A DNA stretch of 64,000 nt. Origin: Daejeonella oryzae DSM 19973 (lineage in GTDB: Bacteria; Bacteroidota; Bacteroidia; Sphingobacteriales; Sphingobacteriaceae). How positions within the stretch are numbered: the stretch's first letter is position 1; each line of letters begins with the position of its first letter. Under the pieces are notes generated by a model. That model worked only from the letters and a program-made list of their open reading frames with translations, ran no database searches and was not told the origin of the DNA. Shown here one piece after another: positions 27,757 to 36,885 of this stretch. A program made the position numbers and the translations under genes. The DNA is taken from positions 62,001-126,000 of the forward strand of contig NZ_AUHA01000003.1 in NCBI RefSeq assembly GCF_000422945.1, given 5' to 3'.

Positions 27757-28347
27757 TTAGTTTAAATCTTTAAATAACCTTTCAGCTATAGCTTCTGCAT
27801 CCTGCGGATCTCCCCAAATCATTTCAGGTAATGAAAAGTTGAGGTATTTTAAAGATTTTACCGTATCCGAATGAACATCATCAGGGCTACCCCAATTCAT
27901 ATCCGCTGTTGGGAAATTAAGATATTTTAATGATTCAACAGATTCTGATTTCAGCTCTTCAGCATTTCCCCAAATCATTTCAGGAGCAGGGAACTTTAAG
28001 AATTTCAATGATCTGATAGATTCGATATTTACATCCTCAGGATTTCCCCATATCATTTCTGGAGCTGCAATTGTCAGTTTTAAATTGGAAGATGATTTTA
28101 CGGGAGTTCCATCGGGTCTTGAAACCGCTGTGTCATTTTCGTAGCCATTTGCTTTGATGTTTTTTAGAGCTTCAACAGCTTCAGAATTTATATCATCGGG
28201 ACTTCCAATTGTTACAGGCATAGCCGGCAAAATTAATTTTGCAAATCTTGCTTTTTTACCCGGTTCTCCGGCTGGTTTTCCATCTGCGAATGAAGTATAA
28301 GAGACAAATATTAGTAATGCGGCGATTAGTGATTTAAGAGTTTTCAT
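27757..28347 (-). CDS. Secreted WGNPEDVN-repeat protein A (five divergent 26-aa repeats)
   Basis: 196 aa. The signal peptide (1-22) ends TSFADG. The mature chain is built of about five repeats: a divergent first one (VTIGSPDDINSEAVEALKNIK), then units with cores PEMIWGNPEDVNIESIRSLK, PEMIWGNAEELKSESVESLK, ADMNWGSPDDVHSDTVKSLK and PEMIWGDPQDAEAIAERLFK. The full unit is 26 residues: an alternating beta-like strand, WG, an acidic turn (N/S/D-P-E/D-D) and a short helix ending SLK. No known domain was recognised. A paralogue lies at 29.9-30.4 kb, and both share their upstream DNA. Periplasmic or surface location is likely; function is unknown. Confidence 0.85.
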   Translation of the reverse strand: MKTLKSLIAALLIFVSYTSFADGKPAGEPGKKARFAKLILPAMPVTIGSPDDINSEAVEALKNIKANGYENDTAVSRPDGTPVKSSSNLKLTIAAPEMIWGNPEDVNIESIRSLKFLKFPAPEMIWGNAEELKSESVESLKYLNFPTADMNWGSPDDVHSDTVKSLKYLNFSLPEMIWGDPQDAEAIAERLFKDLN

Positions 28348-28381
28348 GGCTTTGTTTTTTTGTTTAAGTAATTTGTATGAT

Positions 28382-28470
28382 CAAATGTACTCCTCAAACA
28401 AAACGCAGGCAATGGCATTTAGGCCGGAAGCCTGAACAACTCGGTAAGCGGCGGAAATGAATCGGTTAAA
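28382..28470 (-). promoter_or_regulatory. Promoter and direct-repeat operator of repeat protein A
   Basis: Reverse-strand -7 box TACATTTG (28389-28382) lies 35 bp before the ATG. Upstream are two TCGGT-type boxes (plus-strand TCGGTAAGC at 28441 and TCGGTTAAA at 28462), exactly 21 bp apart, with 51 bp between box and -7 element. The same elements at the same spacing precede repeat protein B. A 21-bp direct repeat resembles LytTR-regulator sites; the regulator is not identified. Confidence 0.65.
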
Positions 28471-28545
28471 CAATTAAACCATCCGCGAATGCGATTCAAT
28501 GCTTGTAAATCAATCTATTAAAGGCTATTAACCCGGCAATAAGTT

Positions 28546-29697
28546 TTAGAATTTAGTGCGGTTAGAAACCAGGATTACACAAAAGCCCATAAATGCCATT
28601 AATGCAAATGAAATTCTTAAGCTACTTGCTCCGGCTATTAATCCAATTAATGGCGGACCTAACAAAAAACCCAGAAATCCGATGGTAGAAACTGCTGCAA
28701 GGGCCATACCCGGAGACATTACTTTGGATTTTCCAGCTGCGCTGTAAACCAATGGAATTACAGAAGAAACTCCGATTCCAACCAGTAAGAAACCTACAAT
28801 TGCTGAAAGTAGTTGTGGATAGATTACAGCAATTAATAAACCGATGGCTGTTAAAGCCCCGCTGATCTGGAGCGTTGTCTTTGTCCCAAAACGACCTGAA
28901 AACCAATCGGCCATAAAACGCCCCATAGCCATAGTGCCCATAAAAGCGGTATATCCGGCTCCCATCCAGGCACCTTCTGCCTCAACTACTTTTTTAAAGT
29001 ACACTACGCTCCAGTCAAACATTGCTCCTTCGCATATTAAAGAGCAAAATGCAATCAAACCCAAACTCATTAATGATTTATCAGGCTTAACAAATATTGG
29101 CTGTCCGGCAGGAACTCCGCTGTCTTTCTTAAGAAATCTGAAACCGATTGCTACCATGACAATAATTAATGCCATGATGATAAAAAAATGCTGGGATGGT
29201 GTTACACCTTTCCCGATCATAAAGGAACCTATTACGGCGCCACTGAACCCGGCCAGACTCCAAAGTCCGTGAAATGATGCCATAATAGGCTTCTGATAAA
29301 CTTTTTCGACCATTACGGCTTGCGTATTAATAGAAATATTTACGCCGTTGCTGAAAAATCCGAAGAGAAAAAGAAAAAAGATGAGCATGAAAACATTCTG
29401 GGCGAGGCCAAGGCTCAATAAAGTGATGCTATATAAAATTAGAGATACAACCAAAAGCCTGCGGCTTCCGATTACGGATATCAGCCACCCGGAAATGGGT
29501 AATGAAAGCATTAAACCTACCGGAAGAGAAAATAGAATCCCGCCTAATGCGGCTTCAGAAAGTCCAAGTTCCTGTTGTATGGTTGCTATACGTGAGGCCC
29601 AGCTTGCAAAACAAAGACCTGTTAGAAAAAACATTAAACCTACAGTTATCCGTAAAGTTTTTTTTGAATATGCAAGAGAGGGTACAGGTGAATCCAT
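28546..29697 (-). CDS. MFS transporter (YbjJ/fucose-permease-like)
   Basis: 383 aa with twelve predicted membrane helices. The first half has FASWASRIATIQQELGLSEAALG and the SRR loop after helix 3 (GSRRLLVV), typical of YbjJ-type facilitators. Related proteins export or import sugars or small metabolites; the substrate is not known. It sits between the two WGNPEDVN-repeat genes in the same orientation but has its own probable -7 box at 29739-29732, so co-transcription with repeat gene B is not required. Confidence 0.9.
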   Translation of the reverse strand: MDSPVPSLAYSKKTLRITVGLMFFLTGLCFASWASRIATIQQELGLSEAALGGILFSLPVGLMLSLPISGWLISVIGSRRLLVVSLILYSITLLSLGLAQNVFMLIFFLFLFGFFSNGVNISINTQAVMVEKVYQKPIMASFHGLWSLAGFSGAVIGSFMIGKGVTPSQHFFIIMALIIVMVAIGFRFLKKDSGVPAGQPIFVKPDKSLMSLGLIAFCSLICEGAMFDWSVVYFKKVVEAEGAWMGAGYTAFMGTMAMGRFMADWFSGRFGTKTTLQISGALTAIGLLIAVIYPQLLSAIVGFLLVGIGVSSVIPLVYSAAGKSKVMSPGMALAAVSTIGFLGFLLGPPLIGLIAGASSLRISFALMAFMGFCVILVSNRTKF

Positions 29698-29731
29698 TCA
29701 GTAAAATATACTATTGTCAACTAATTAATTG

Positions 29732-29739
29732 CAAAAGTA
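29732..29739 (-). promoter_or_regulatory. Probable -7 box of the MFS transporter gene
   Basis: On the reverse strand this reads TACTTTTG, a perfect TAnnTTTG match 35 bp before the ATG at 29697. An upstream -33 element is not clear. Confidence 0.4.
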
Positions 29740-29903
29740 TATTATTTTTTCCTGTTATCCTGCTTGTTTACAAATGAATACGAGCATAATCAGATAAGTG
29801 TATTTTAAACACTAAGTAATCGATTTTTTTTATTGTTTTTGAGACATAGCCTGCATTCTTAGCAGGATTTAATTTTTTGTTTCAATAGCAGAAACCGCAA
29901 TTA

Positions 29904-30419
29904 TTAGTTGATATTTTTCAAAGATTTAACCGATACAGAGTTCACATCTTCGGGATTACCCCAGGCCATTTCCGGAGCTGGAATTGTCAGATTGATATTT
30001 TTCAGAGATTTAACCGATACAGAGTTCACATCTTCGGGATTACCCCAGGCCATTTCCGGAGCTGGAATTGTCAGATTAATATTTTTCAGAGATTCAACCG
30101 ATCCGGAGTTCACATCTTCGGGATTACCCCAGGTCATTTCCGGAGCTGGAATTACCAGATTGATATTTTTCAGAGATTCAACCGATCCGGAGTTCACATC
30201 TTCCGGATTACCCCAGGTCATTTCCGGAGCTGGAATTGTCAGATTGATATGTTTCAGAGATTCAACCGATCCGGAGTTCACATCTTCGGGATTACCCCAT
30301 TCTATGGAAGGCGCTTTGAAATTGTTAATTCGTTTAAGTTCTTTCCCGAAATTATTATCTGCTATCGCATTTGAAGAGAATAATAATAATGTTGCTGTGA
30401 GGATATTTAATGCTTTCAT
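29904..30419 (-). CDS. Secreted WGNPEDVN-repeat protein B (five near-identical 28-aa repeats)
   Basis: 171 aa. The signal peptide ends NAIAD (about residue 21). After a 15-residue spacer the whole mature protein is five tandem 28-residue units with core PEMTWGNPEDVNSGSVESLK and linker NINLTIPA. The unit is two residues longer than in protein A, which preserves the parity of the putative beta strand. Units 4 and 5 are identical in protein sequence. No catalytic residues, Cys or metal motif are visible; a structural or binding role is inferred. The opposite strand is also open across the repeats but is a shadow. Confidence 0.85.
   Translation of the reverse strand: MKALNILTATLLLFSSNAIADNNFGKELKRINNFKAPSIEWGNPEDVNSGSVESLKHINLTIPAPEMTWGNPEDVNSGSVESLKNINLVIPAPEMTWGNPEDVNSGSVESLKNINLTIPAPEMAWGNPEDVNSVSVKSLKNINLTIPAPEMAWGNPEDVNSVSVKSLKNIN
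29908..30327. repeat. Five tandem 84-bp repeats inside repeat gene B
   Basis: Unit starts (TTGATATTT or variant) are at 29908, 29992, 30076, 30160 and 30244, exactly 84 bp apart. The first two units differ at only about two positions; the last is the most divergent. The units abut without spacers, so this is coding tandem duplication and not a CRISPR array. Copy number could vary between strains by slippage or recombination. Confidence 0.95.
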
Positions 30420-30442
30420 AATTTGTTGTTTTTAATTATGAT

Positions 30443-30530
30443 CAAATGTAACATGTAGTAACTGCCTGTTAAATATCAAACTGGCAGGCAACATGATCAT
30501 TTCGGTAAGCAGCAGAATTGTGTCGGTGAA
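30443..30530 (-). promoter_or_regulatory. Promoter and direct-repeat operator of repeat protein B
   Basis: Reverse-strand -7 box TACATTTG (30450-30443) lies 24 bp before the ATG. TCGGT boxes are at 30502 (TCGGTAAGC) and 30523 (TCGGTGAAA), 21 bp apart, with 51 bp between the proximal box and the -7 element. Sequence just downstream of the -7 box (ATCATA) is also shared with gene A. Confidence 0.65.
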
Positions 30531-34267: not shown

Positions 34268-35236
34268 TTAGCAACAGCCGCCACCATCATAAAAATAGGT
34301 AGAACTAGAAATGAAAATATCCTGGCGATTTAAAGCGCTTAAAGCTGCCGCGGTTTTATCACAAATTGCTAAGGGCTGATTGGAAAATAATGTGTGACCA
34401 TTTCCGTCATCAAAAAAATTATCGCCATAATAAATGGCTGTTTTTCCTGTAAAAACACAGGGTCCGTCTGCGGGAACCGGATCTTTGATGGCGCAGATCT
34501 CACAGCTTTCAATGTAGATCAGTTCATCCGTTTCATAATGAATCGGATCCAGAATCCGGTAAGGCCTTTTGGCCCGTACTTCGATGGTTCCAAAACCTAT
34601 ATCTGTTAATCGTTTAATGTATTCGTTTAAAGGCAAGGCTCCCGATAGGCATAATGCCCGAAGTCTTTCATCATTTTTCAGGTTTGCTGGTATGTTCTGC
34701 TCGCAAGTCGGGTCTGATAATATTAATCTGCCGTTGGGTTTTAAAACACGATACATTTCTTTTAGTGCCTGCTGCAATTCATCATCACGAAAAATATTGA
34801 ACAAACAATTTTGTGCAGCTACATCTATTGAACTGTCCTCTAATGGCAGATTTAGCGCATCCGCTTTGCGGATATCAATAAATTCTGATTTAAACCAGGA
34901 ATTTGATTTTTCTGCTTCTACCAGATTGGCTTTGCAGGCATCAATCATTTCTTCTACCACATCAATTCCAATTACTGCGCCTTTTTTACGACTGAAGTAA
35001 GAGAATTGAAGTAACTCCATTCCGCCCCCGATTCCTACATATAAAATGCCTGGGTTTCCCGAAAGATCTCTGGGGTTTACCGTGCTACCGCAACCGTAGT
35101 TCATTTCCAGCATTCTGGAGGGAACTGTAAGATCTGGTAATTTCCATACAGGTGTTGTTGTACAGCATAATCCTTTTTCAGGATTTTCTGCTGCAGCTTT
35201 ATATACATCGTAGGTAGTGATCTGCTGAATATCCAT
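34268..35236 (-). CDS. arsM: Arsenosugar-pathway arsenite S-adenosylmethionine methyltransferase
   Basis: 322 aa. A class I methyltransferase core with SAM motif ILYVGIGGGMELL near 64-76, and Cys residues suited to bind As(III): CC at 24-25, Cys49 in NYGCGSTVNPR, Cys in DPTCEQN, and a GGGCC C-terminal tail. The long C-terminal domain after the SAM core (SCEICAIK, GPCVFTGKTAIYYG) marks the arsenosugar subtype. It is last in the cluster, 3 bp after the glycosyltransferase gene, and would methylate arsenic as a step toward arsenosugars. Confidence 0.88.
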   Translation of the reverse strand: MDIQQITTYDVYKAAAENPEKGLCCTTTPVWKLPDLTVPSRMLEMNYGCGSTVNPRDLSGNPGILYVGIGGGMELLQFSYFSRKKGAVIGIDVVEEMIDACKANLVEAEKSNSWFKSEFIDIRKADALNLPLEDSSIDVAAQNCLFNIFRDDELQQALKEMYRVLKPNGRLILSDPTCEQNIPANLKNDERLRALCLSGALPLNEYIKRLTDIGFGTIEVRAKRPYRILDPIHYETDELIYIESCEICAIKDPVPADGPCVFTGKTAIYYGDNFFDDGNGHTLFSNQPLAICDKTAAALSALNRQDIFISSSTYFYDGGGCC

Positions 35237-35239
35237 AAC

Positions 35240-35836
35240 TTATCTGATTAGGTTTTTTAATTCCTCATTTAAATCATCAATTGTATCAATATCTGATAAT
35301 GAAGGTAAAATATAACAGGTTTTTTGCAGGCGATTAATATCTTCCAGTGTTTGAGCGGCCACAGTAGAGCTGCTCCATATTTTGTTTTCAAACAGGATGT
35401 GTTCAGGCGATTTCATTCCCAATAAATAATATCCTCCGTCAAGCGCCGGACCAATTACAAAATCGCGTGTGTGTAATTTTTTAAACGCTTCTGTGATTGT
35501 TGCAGCATCCAGATCTATGCAATCGCTGCCAATAATCACTACCTGTTTATGACCATTCTGAAATGCGAGATTAAATGCATTTTGCATGCGAAGGCCCAAA
35601 TCACTGCCGCTTTGAACGTGTTTTTCATATATAGTTTCCGGCCAGTTATCTTTAAAATCGATTATTTCATCATAGAATAAATATTTTTTGGCCGAAATGT
35701 CCGAACTTATTTTTTGGGTATGATCAAGTAAATACTTATAGATGACAAGAGCATTTTTATCTCCAATTCCGACGGCCAGCCGCGTTTTTACTTTTCCTTC
35801 CAGAGGATTTTTTATAAAAATAATCAGAGCCTCCAT
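35240..35836 (-). CDS. Arsenosugar biosynthesis glycosyltransferase (TIGR04282 type)
   Basis: 198 aa GT-A-like fold. It begins LIIFIKNPLEGKVKTRLAVGIG (nucleotide-sugar loop) and has VVIIGSDCIDLDAATI (acidic metal site near 96-111) and DFVIGPALDGGYYLLGMK. This small family is repeatedly found beside arsM and arsS. It overlaps the arsS stop by one base and precedes arsM by 3 bp. The exact sugar transfer is unproven. Confidence 0.85.
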   Translation of the reverse strand: MEALIIFIKNPLEGKVKTRLAVGIGDKNALVIYKYLLDHTQKISSDISAKKYLFYDEIIDFKDNWPETIYEKHVQSGSDLGLRMQNAFNLAFQNGHKQVVIIGSDCIDLDAATITEAFKKLHTRDFVIGPALDGGYYLLGMKSPEHILFENKIWSSSTVAAQTLEDINRLQKTCYILPSLSDIDTIDDLNEELKNLIR

Positions 35837-36885
35837 TAAACTATTTCACCTCCGCAGCTTGAACCGGCACCGGCTGTACAACCATAGCAATGCTGGTTGA
35901 TGACAATTTCCCGCTGGTTTAATTGTTCTGTGTTAAAGTTTTTAATGTGATCGGGCAAGCCATGATTAATCTTCAGATCAAGCATCTGGTTGAAATCGCA
36001 ATCATATAAATAACCATCCCAGCCAATAGATATCATGCTGCGGCACATTACGTTTTGAGCCGCCTCCGGATTAAAGGAGTTGACCAGCTTTTCCATATAT
36101 CCATCGTAATTTCCACTTACCATTAAATAATCTAAAAATCGGCTTACAGGTAAATTGGTAATTGCGAAAAGCTCATTGAAAAAGATATTAAACCGCAGCT
36201 TTAATTCACGTTTAAAGTCGGATTCTAAAGATCCCTGCGGAGGTGGTAAAAACGCACCGGAAGGATTATATACCAGGTTAAGAATTAAACCCGAGCCCTC
36301 CACACCATAACCGGCTGCATTTAATAATTGCAATGCCTTAAGAGAATCATTAAAAACTCCTTCTCCGCGTTGCGCATCTGTTTTGTGCGATGAATAATAG
36401 GGGAGAGAGGAAATGACTTCTACACGGTGAGTTTTAAAAAACTCGGGCAGATCATTATATTTTTTATTCGCTACAATTATAGTGAGGTTGCATCTTACAA
36501 TGATTTTACGCCCCAATTTGCTGATTTCCTCTACAAACCATCTGAAGTCCGGGTTCATCTCCGGAGCGCCGCCTGTAAGGTCAACCGTTTGAATGGATGT
36601 GGAAGCTAAAATATCGAGGCATTGCTGCATTGTTTCCCTGGTCATGATCTCTTTTCGGTCCGGACCGGCGTCTACGTGGCAATGCTTGCAGGTTTGGTTG
36701 CACATTTTACCCACATTAATCTGCAGGGTGTTAATATTCAATGGCTTTAAAGGAAACAAGCCAAGCGCTCTTAATTTTTCACTGAATTTGGGAAGTGAAG
36801 AAATCGTTTCATCGCCGGTATTCAAAACTTCCAGCTGAATAAATGAATTAGATAAAGGATTATGTGATGCCTGAAGGCTTTTCAT
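35836..36885 (-). CDS. arsS: Arsenosugar biosynthesis radical SAM protein
   Basis: 349 aa. The 4Fe-4S/SAM motif CNQTCKHCH has Cys62, Cys66 and Cys69, and the GGAPEMNP segment near 110 supports SAM binding. A second Cys-rich cluster ends the protein (CYGCTAGAGSSCGG), typical of the SPASM-like C-terminus of this family. Family knowledge: ArsS joins the 5'-deoxyadenosyl group to dimethylarsenite-derived species. Neighbouring arsM and the glycosyltransferase support this. Confidence 0.88.
   Translation of the reverse strand: MKSLQASHNPLSNSFIQLEVLNTGDETISSLPKFSEKLRALGLFPLKPLNINTLQINVGKMCNQTCKHCHVDAGPDRKEIMTRETMQQCLDILASTSIQTVDLTGGAPEMNPDFRWFVEEISKLGRKIIVRCNLTIIVANKKYNDLPEFFKTHRVEVISSLPYYSSHKTDAQRGEGVFNDSLKALQLLNAAGYGVEGSGLILNLVYNPSGAFLPPPQGSLESDFKRELKLRFNIFFNELFAITNLPVSRFLDYLMVSGNYDGYMEKLVNSFNPEAAQNVMCRSMISIGWDGYLYDCDFNQMLDLKINHGLPDHIKNFNTEQLNQREIVINQHCYGCTAGAGSSCGGEIV

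Follow-up and report, generated by a model that had tools for sequence, protein, structure and literature searches.

In the sections of PMC6193735 that deal with operators, published LytTR sites are described as two direct repeats that lie upstream of the promoter with a spacing of about 21 bp (see also PMC11347149 for this operator pattern), and the part of the same source devoted to Bacteroides describes a DUF2154/LytTR operon in which ACCGGAAATCA repeats lie ahead of TATCTTTG. PspC, LiaF-TM and Toastrack are presented, in the relevant parts of two surveys (PMC11237479, PMC9239133), as components of Psp/Lia envelope-stress systems, and a term search of the text of these surveys retrieved no secreted WG-repeat partner. 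Envelope stress responses of the Bacteroidota are poorly mapped. The two genes considered here, which encode the small secreted repeat proteins P0001 and P0002, lie in a window of 64,000 nucleotides from Daejeonella oryzae DSM 19973 (the window being the whole stretch of DNA that was analysed). Taken together, the observations are best explained, with a probability of about 0.6, if both proteins are the secreted outputs of an envelope-stress regulon that is Psp/Lia-like and controlled by LytTR, in which they would act as flexible binders.

Table 1. Features of the two repeat-protein genes (window positions) and sites of the regulon promoter elsewhere in the same genome (contig:position).
Feature	Position	Strand	Basis or detail
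P0001, secreted WG-repeat protein, 196 aa	27757..28347	-	ORF and translation, unit spacing
P0002, secreted WG-repeat protein, 171 aa, five 28-residue units	29904..30419	-	ORF and translation, Tandem Repeats Finder, spacing
Signal peptide of P0001, MKTLKSLIAALLIFVSYTSFA	28285..28347	-	Likely cleavage before D22; direct reading of the sequence
Signal peptide of P0002, MKALNILTATLLLFSSNAIA	30360..30419	-	Likely cleavage before D21; direct reading of the sequence
Regular repeat region of P0001, 26-residue units	27760..28062	-	Tandem Repeats Finder, unit spacing, codon constraint
Repeat region of P0002, 28-residue units	29908..30299	-	Tandem Repeats Finder, unit spacing, codon constraint
Promoter of P0001	28382..28466	-	ACCGA at 28462-28466 and 28441-28445, 21 bp apart; -7 box TACATTTG at 28382-28389; model E = 3.4e-11
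Promoter of P0002	30443..30527	-	ACCGA at 30523-30527 and 30502-30506, 21 bp apart; -7 box TACATTTG at 30443-30450; model E = 1.1e-12
Model site, LiaF-LytS-LytTR operon	C1:59195		E = 3.6e-11
Model site, PspC gene	C6:32030		
Model site, PspC gene	C1:937503		
Model site, DUF5916 protein gene	C1:908365		

Inspection of the translations revealed no cysteine in the mature parts of P0001 and P0002 and no catalytic motif in either protein, so that the description given by the sequence-only reading (signal peptides, cysteine-free mature parts and W-G-[NSD]-P-[ED]-[ED] repeats) is borne out at the level of the ORFs. Its statement that the proteins consist almost wholly of tandem repeats goes too far for P0001, in which the regular repeat covers only about half of the 196 residues (approximately residues 92-196). 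This protein holds four units of 26 residues and a degenerate one near residue 46, which is separated from the regular units by a non-repetitive stretch. Tandem Repeats Finder reported 1.9 copies of a 78-bp (26-aa) unit in P0001 (27917-28065) and 4.7 copies of an 84-bp (28-aa) unit with 95% matches in P0002 (29908-30299), whose units 4 and 5 show synonymous differences only. The two unit lengths are confirmed, also by the spacing of the cores. The accompanying idea that the difference in unit length keeps strand parity does not extend to the family at large: the core-to-core distances found in 26 family proteins (20, 23, 24, 26, 27, 28 or 29 residues) are both odd and even. An antisense ORF of 175 aa on the plus strand (29908-30435), which mirrors the repeat of P0002, was rejected as a gene because promoter, signal peptide and codon constraint all lie on the minus strand, and it has been interpreted as a side effect of the repeats on that strand.

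Comparison of 84 units from 26 proteins defines the core of the family as [AV][AP][PE][FM]x[WYF]G[NSD]P[ED][DE]. The G of this core was fixed by the search pattern used to collect the units, and the residue preceding it is W, Y or F in 91% of them. Hydrophobic residues are mostly found at positions +11 and +14 after the core W, and the mature proteins, mostly acidic, contain almost no cysteine. Ortholog pairs within the genus Daejeonella gave dN/dS values of 0.12-0.26, and it is clear that the repeats are protein-coding and under constraint at the protein level. A whole unit can be lost, as in the close orthologs L011 and L008 (genomes G019 and G010), the former lacking exactly one unit.

The family corresponds to no named repeat family, and the sequence-only reading had recognised none: searches of Pfam and NCBIfam gave nothing above the curated cut-off (the best Pfam score for a window protein, 20.1 bits in one of 18 members, stayed below the cut-off of 27), the PDB contained no match for the family, and a literature search on the repeat motif found no paper. 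Sub-threshold hits to PSA_CBD, RNF34L-like and YnaL (Pfam) and to MarB (NCBIfam), each in one or two members, were taken as effects of composition or of the signal peptide. AlphaFold models of P0001 and P0002 reached a pLDDT of 34.8, with shallow alignments of 6 and 1 sequences; such low confidence is compatible with disorder, and neither proves it nor rules out a fold.

Homologues were detected by single-sequence search in nine of the 19 other genomes of the genus, to which a profile adds one, and searches of related genomes found them also in several other genera of the Sphingobacteriaceae. A named-contig search with P0002 as the query gave no match, and the same search with a Daejeonella relative as the query retrieved three named loci; relatives with family members include Daejeonella and Hufsiella ginkgonis, both Sphingobacteriaceae. 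In the latter species, two repeat-family genes stand in tandem (L192:3875-5806), and the gene after them encodes a secreted lumazine-binding-like protein, again of a type that belongs to the regulon. Among the genomes searched, the family was seen only in Sphingobacteriaceae. A profile of the repeat part alone, run against 395 genomes of the class, matched in two, both of the window's genus, in a sample that includes few Sphingobacteriaceae and with a profile short enough to miss distant members. Any family match was obtained in eight of 25 genera, some of these being matches to the signal peptide only. The possibility considered in the sequence-only reading, that homologues would occur only as unconserved low-complexity ORFs, does not apply to this real and conserved family.

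The upstream DNA of P0001 and P0002 is alike, and this was the starting point for recognising a shared promoter, which the sequence-only reading had missed and which places both genes in a regulon. The upstream regions of the 18 first-found family genes were lined up, with the -7 box TAnnTTTG as anchor. All 18 contain two ACCGA-like repeats with a spacing of exactly 21 bp, at 77/56 bp before the box in 17 of them and at 76/55 bp in the remaining one. The corresponding search pattern (ACCGA-N16-ACCGA-N51-TAnnTTTG, at most one mismatch), which both window promoters match with 0 mismatches, occurs in most Sphingobacteriaceae genomes, typically at 1-6 sites each, and hardly elsewhere, and a reversed control pattern was much rarer. 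The genes behind these sites encode PspC-domain proteins, LiaF-like membrane proteins, lumazine-binding-like (NTF2-like) small secreted proteins, outer-membrane barrels, the WG-repeat family and a few DUF4097-like proteins; a few one-mismatch sites before unrelated genes look like chance.

The promoter pattern was first spotted upstream of the repeat genes, and its discovery was therefore not blind. For an independent model, 49 promoters served as the training set; they belong to PspC, LiaF-like, lumazine-binding-like and outer-membrane-barrel genes, and repeat-protein genes as well as all sequences of the window's genome were kept out. Since the repeat genes had been left out, this test is fair to them. 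In the 3.4-Mb genome of D. oryzae the model recognised six sites (Table 1), all with E <= 3.6e-11, and no other up to 0.1, among them the promoters of P0001 and P0002. Within the window, a weight matrix gave two matches, of 54.7 and 54.0 bits, at these same promoters, and nothing else above 8.

The shared promoter also led to divergent members of the family (L098, L102, L119, L130, L134, L140 and L141) that a plain single-sequence search had missed; four of these (L119, L130, L134 and L098) have degenerate cores (PVSPRDW..., PVPAKVWEE...) and, first revealed by the promoter, were scored later by a profile search too. The same promoter, along with a very similar signal peptide, is found in a second set of small secreted proteins (Lumazine_bd_2 / NTF2-like; loci L090, L099, L105, L116, L121, L127, L132, L135, L156, L157 and L181). 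At L108:5512-8445 (minus strand), the regulon promoter stands before a PspC gene, behind which a gene for an OMP_b-brl_3 outer-membrane protein lies in the same orientation, both genes probably forming one transcription unit. In other families of the class, the promoter model matched upstream of LiaF-like genes (L215, L216 and L219, in G047, G038 and G042), which indicates a wider distribution for the LiaF-LytSR promoter than for the repeat family. The family is in turn absent from many Sphingobacteriaceae genomes that carry the regulon, and is thus an accessory output of it.

The regulator of these promoters is probably encoded behind one of them. Behind the promoter at C1:59195 of the window's genome lie genes with LiaF-TM and LiaF-like_C domains, for a His_kinase of the LytS type and for a Response_reg + LytTR protein (Pfam), and PF04024 PspC, PF22570 LiaF-TM and PF09922 LiaF-like_C (the last just below the cut-off) were identified behind the same promoter. 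A LytS-type kinase is present among the genes following the LiaF-like gene in 13 of 13 other loci inspected, and the next gene after the kinase encodes a receiver-domain regulator wherever the stretch is long enough. The arrangement combines a promoter preceded by direct repeats that start about 21 bp from each other, the same operator ahead of the regulator's own operon, and co-regulation of PspC with LiaF/Toastrack-type proteins. Based on the shared promoter, the types of genes behind it, their conservation and the published LytTR and Psp/Lia parallels, P0001 and P0002 have been assigned to a LytTR-controlled envelope-stress regulon. Judged from sequence, membership of both genes in the shared-promoter regulon is very probable, and direct control of its promoters by binding of the LytTR protein is likely; its induction by stress is suggested by the protein families that it comprises.

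According to the mechanism that we propose, the regulon would be run by the LiaF-like membrane protein, the LytS-type histidine kinase and the LytTR-type response regulator. A disturbance of the envelope, the presumed trigger, would lead to activation of the LytTR regulator, which is predicted to bind the 21-bp-spaced ACCGA direct repeats before each gene and to switch on together its own operon, the PspC-domain membrane proteins, the outer-membrane barrels and the repeat proteins. The repeat proteins would then be exported by Sec, by virtue of their signal peptides, and would be free in the periplasm or outside the cell. With one conserved core motif per unit and variable linkers joining the units, they could establish several weak contacts, and in this way might coat or hold misassembled outer-membrane protein, peptidoglycan or membrane surface until repair. 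That P0001 and P0002 are flexible multivalent binders which protect the envelope, in the periplasm or outside, is the favoured reading of their role and is put forward tentatively. A string of independent binding motifs is suggested by their secretion, the short core, the elastic linkers, the gain and loss of units and the missing catalytic motif, and it fits a core that is strongly conserved, with spacings from 20 to 29 residues and loss of exactly one unit between L008 and L011. Outer-membrane protein chaperones recognise aromatic-x-aromatic strands, to which the core segment [FM]x[WYF]G bears a loose resemblance. It is conceivable, and we regard it as rather unlikely, that a disordered secreted string of near-identical aromatic-proline motifs, whose copy number evolves by gain and loss of units, works in the periplasm as a multivalent holdase for unassembled outer-membrane proteins or as their decoy. 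If true, envelope-stress effectors of a new kind would have come to light in a phylum in which this response has been little charted.

The main rival to flexible binders is a role as feedback ligands, in which repeat proteins made under stress would bind the outer-facing LiaF or LytS, or would be titrated by damage, and would thereby damp or tune the signal; CpxP, a periplasmic protein, damps or tunes the Cpx signal in E. coli. A promoter common to the repeat genes and the sensor operon would suit such ligands, as would small, secreted proteins devoid of a catalytic motif. However, the sensor operon is retained in many genomes in which no repeat protein was detected, which means that the sensor works without it, and the number of repeat proteins varies between species, and this role is judged unlikely. 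Next comes the idea of the sequence-only reading, a rigid solenoid or small repeat domain in which a beta strand (PEMxWG) and a helix (DVxSxxVxSLK) from each unit would be stacked. In several units the AlphaFold models do show a short strand together with a short helix, and the mostly hydrophobic positions +11 and +14 speak in its favour, but the confidence of these weak models is too low for use (pLDDT 34.8), and the variable length of the linkers within and between proteins, odd differences included, together with the loss of a whole unit, argues against rigidity. A fold of this kind is somewhat less probable still.

Less credence is given to a precursor from which the units would be cut after export to act as signal or antimicrobial peptides. 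A signal peptide followed by repeated conserved cores with variable linkers is what such a precursor could look like, and LytTR regulators often stand over bacteriocin genes in Gram-positive bacteria, as the section of PMC6193735 on Streptococcus mutans bacteriocins under LytTR control illustrates. Against this, no cleavage signature, dibasic, Gly-Gly or other, is conserved in the linkers of the unit table, and the relatives inspected each have different genes beside the repeat genes, with neither a peptidase nor an exporter conserved among them. The remaining genes of the regulon serve envelope maintenance. Finally, the sequence-only reading had tentatively linked the two proteins with the MFS transporter encoded between them and had proposed conserved MFS synteny as a check. 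This partnership, in which P0001 and P0002 would be binding proteins working with the transporter, draws on gene position in this window only and is now highly improbable: a close MFS homologue exists in only three of the 19 other genomes of the genus, in two of which (G018 and G013) it lies on a different contig from the repeat genes, none was found near the repeat genes in the relatives' loci inspected, and the weight matrix detected no regulon promoter at the MFS gene in the window, so that the missing synteny largely refutes the idea. Elsewhere in the window (34268-36885, minus strand), methyltransferase, glycosyltransferase-like and radical SAM genes stand in a row, which we take to resemble an arsenosugar (ArsM/ArsS-type) cluster.

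The regulon promoter gives an unnamed family of secreted repeat proteins a testable role. It is precise and searchable, and throughout the Sphingobacteriaceae it links the LiaF-LytS-LytTR operon with PspC, with outer-membrane barrels and with small secreted proteins of two kinds.

Spy and CpxP are small effectors that act in the periplasm when Gram-negative bacteria respond to envelope stress, and the WG-repeat proteins are like them in being small, secreted, presumably stress-induced and without a catalytic motif. In contrast to Spy and CpxP, which are compact helical proteins, they consist of tandem motifs. The operons termed LRS-like in the Bacteroides part of PMC6193735 share with the system reported here a LiaF/DUF2154-type membrane protein beside a LytTR regulator, a TAnnTTTG promoter preceded by ACCG-core direct repeats with a spacing of about 21-22 bp, and the presence of this promoter on the operon itself, which implies autoregulation. 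However, the regulator described there is a transmembrane protein and the operator is discussed for its own operon, whereas in the present case a soluble receiver-LytTR protein is paired with a LytS-type kinase and the operator would also control scattered genes, including those for the secreted repeat proteins. The likeness to Psp/Lia systems, as outlined in the corresponding parts of PMC11237479 and PMC9239133, lies in the combination of PspC, LiaF-TM and LiaF-like C-terminal domains with a two-component system, all of them placed here under one promoter.
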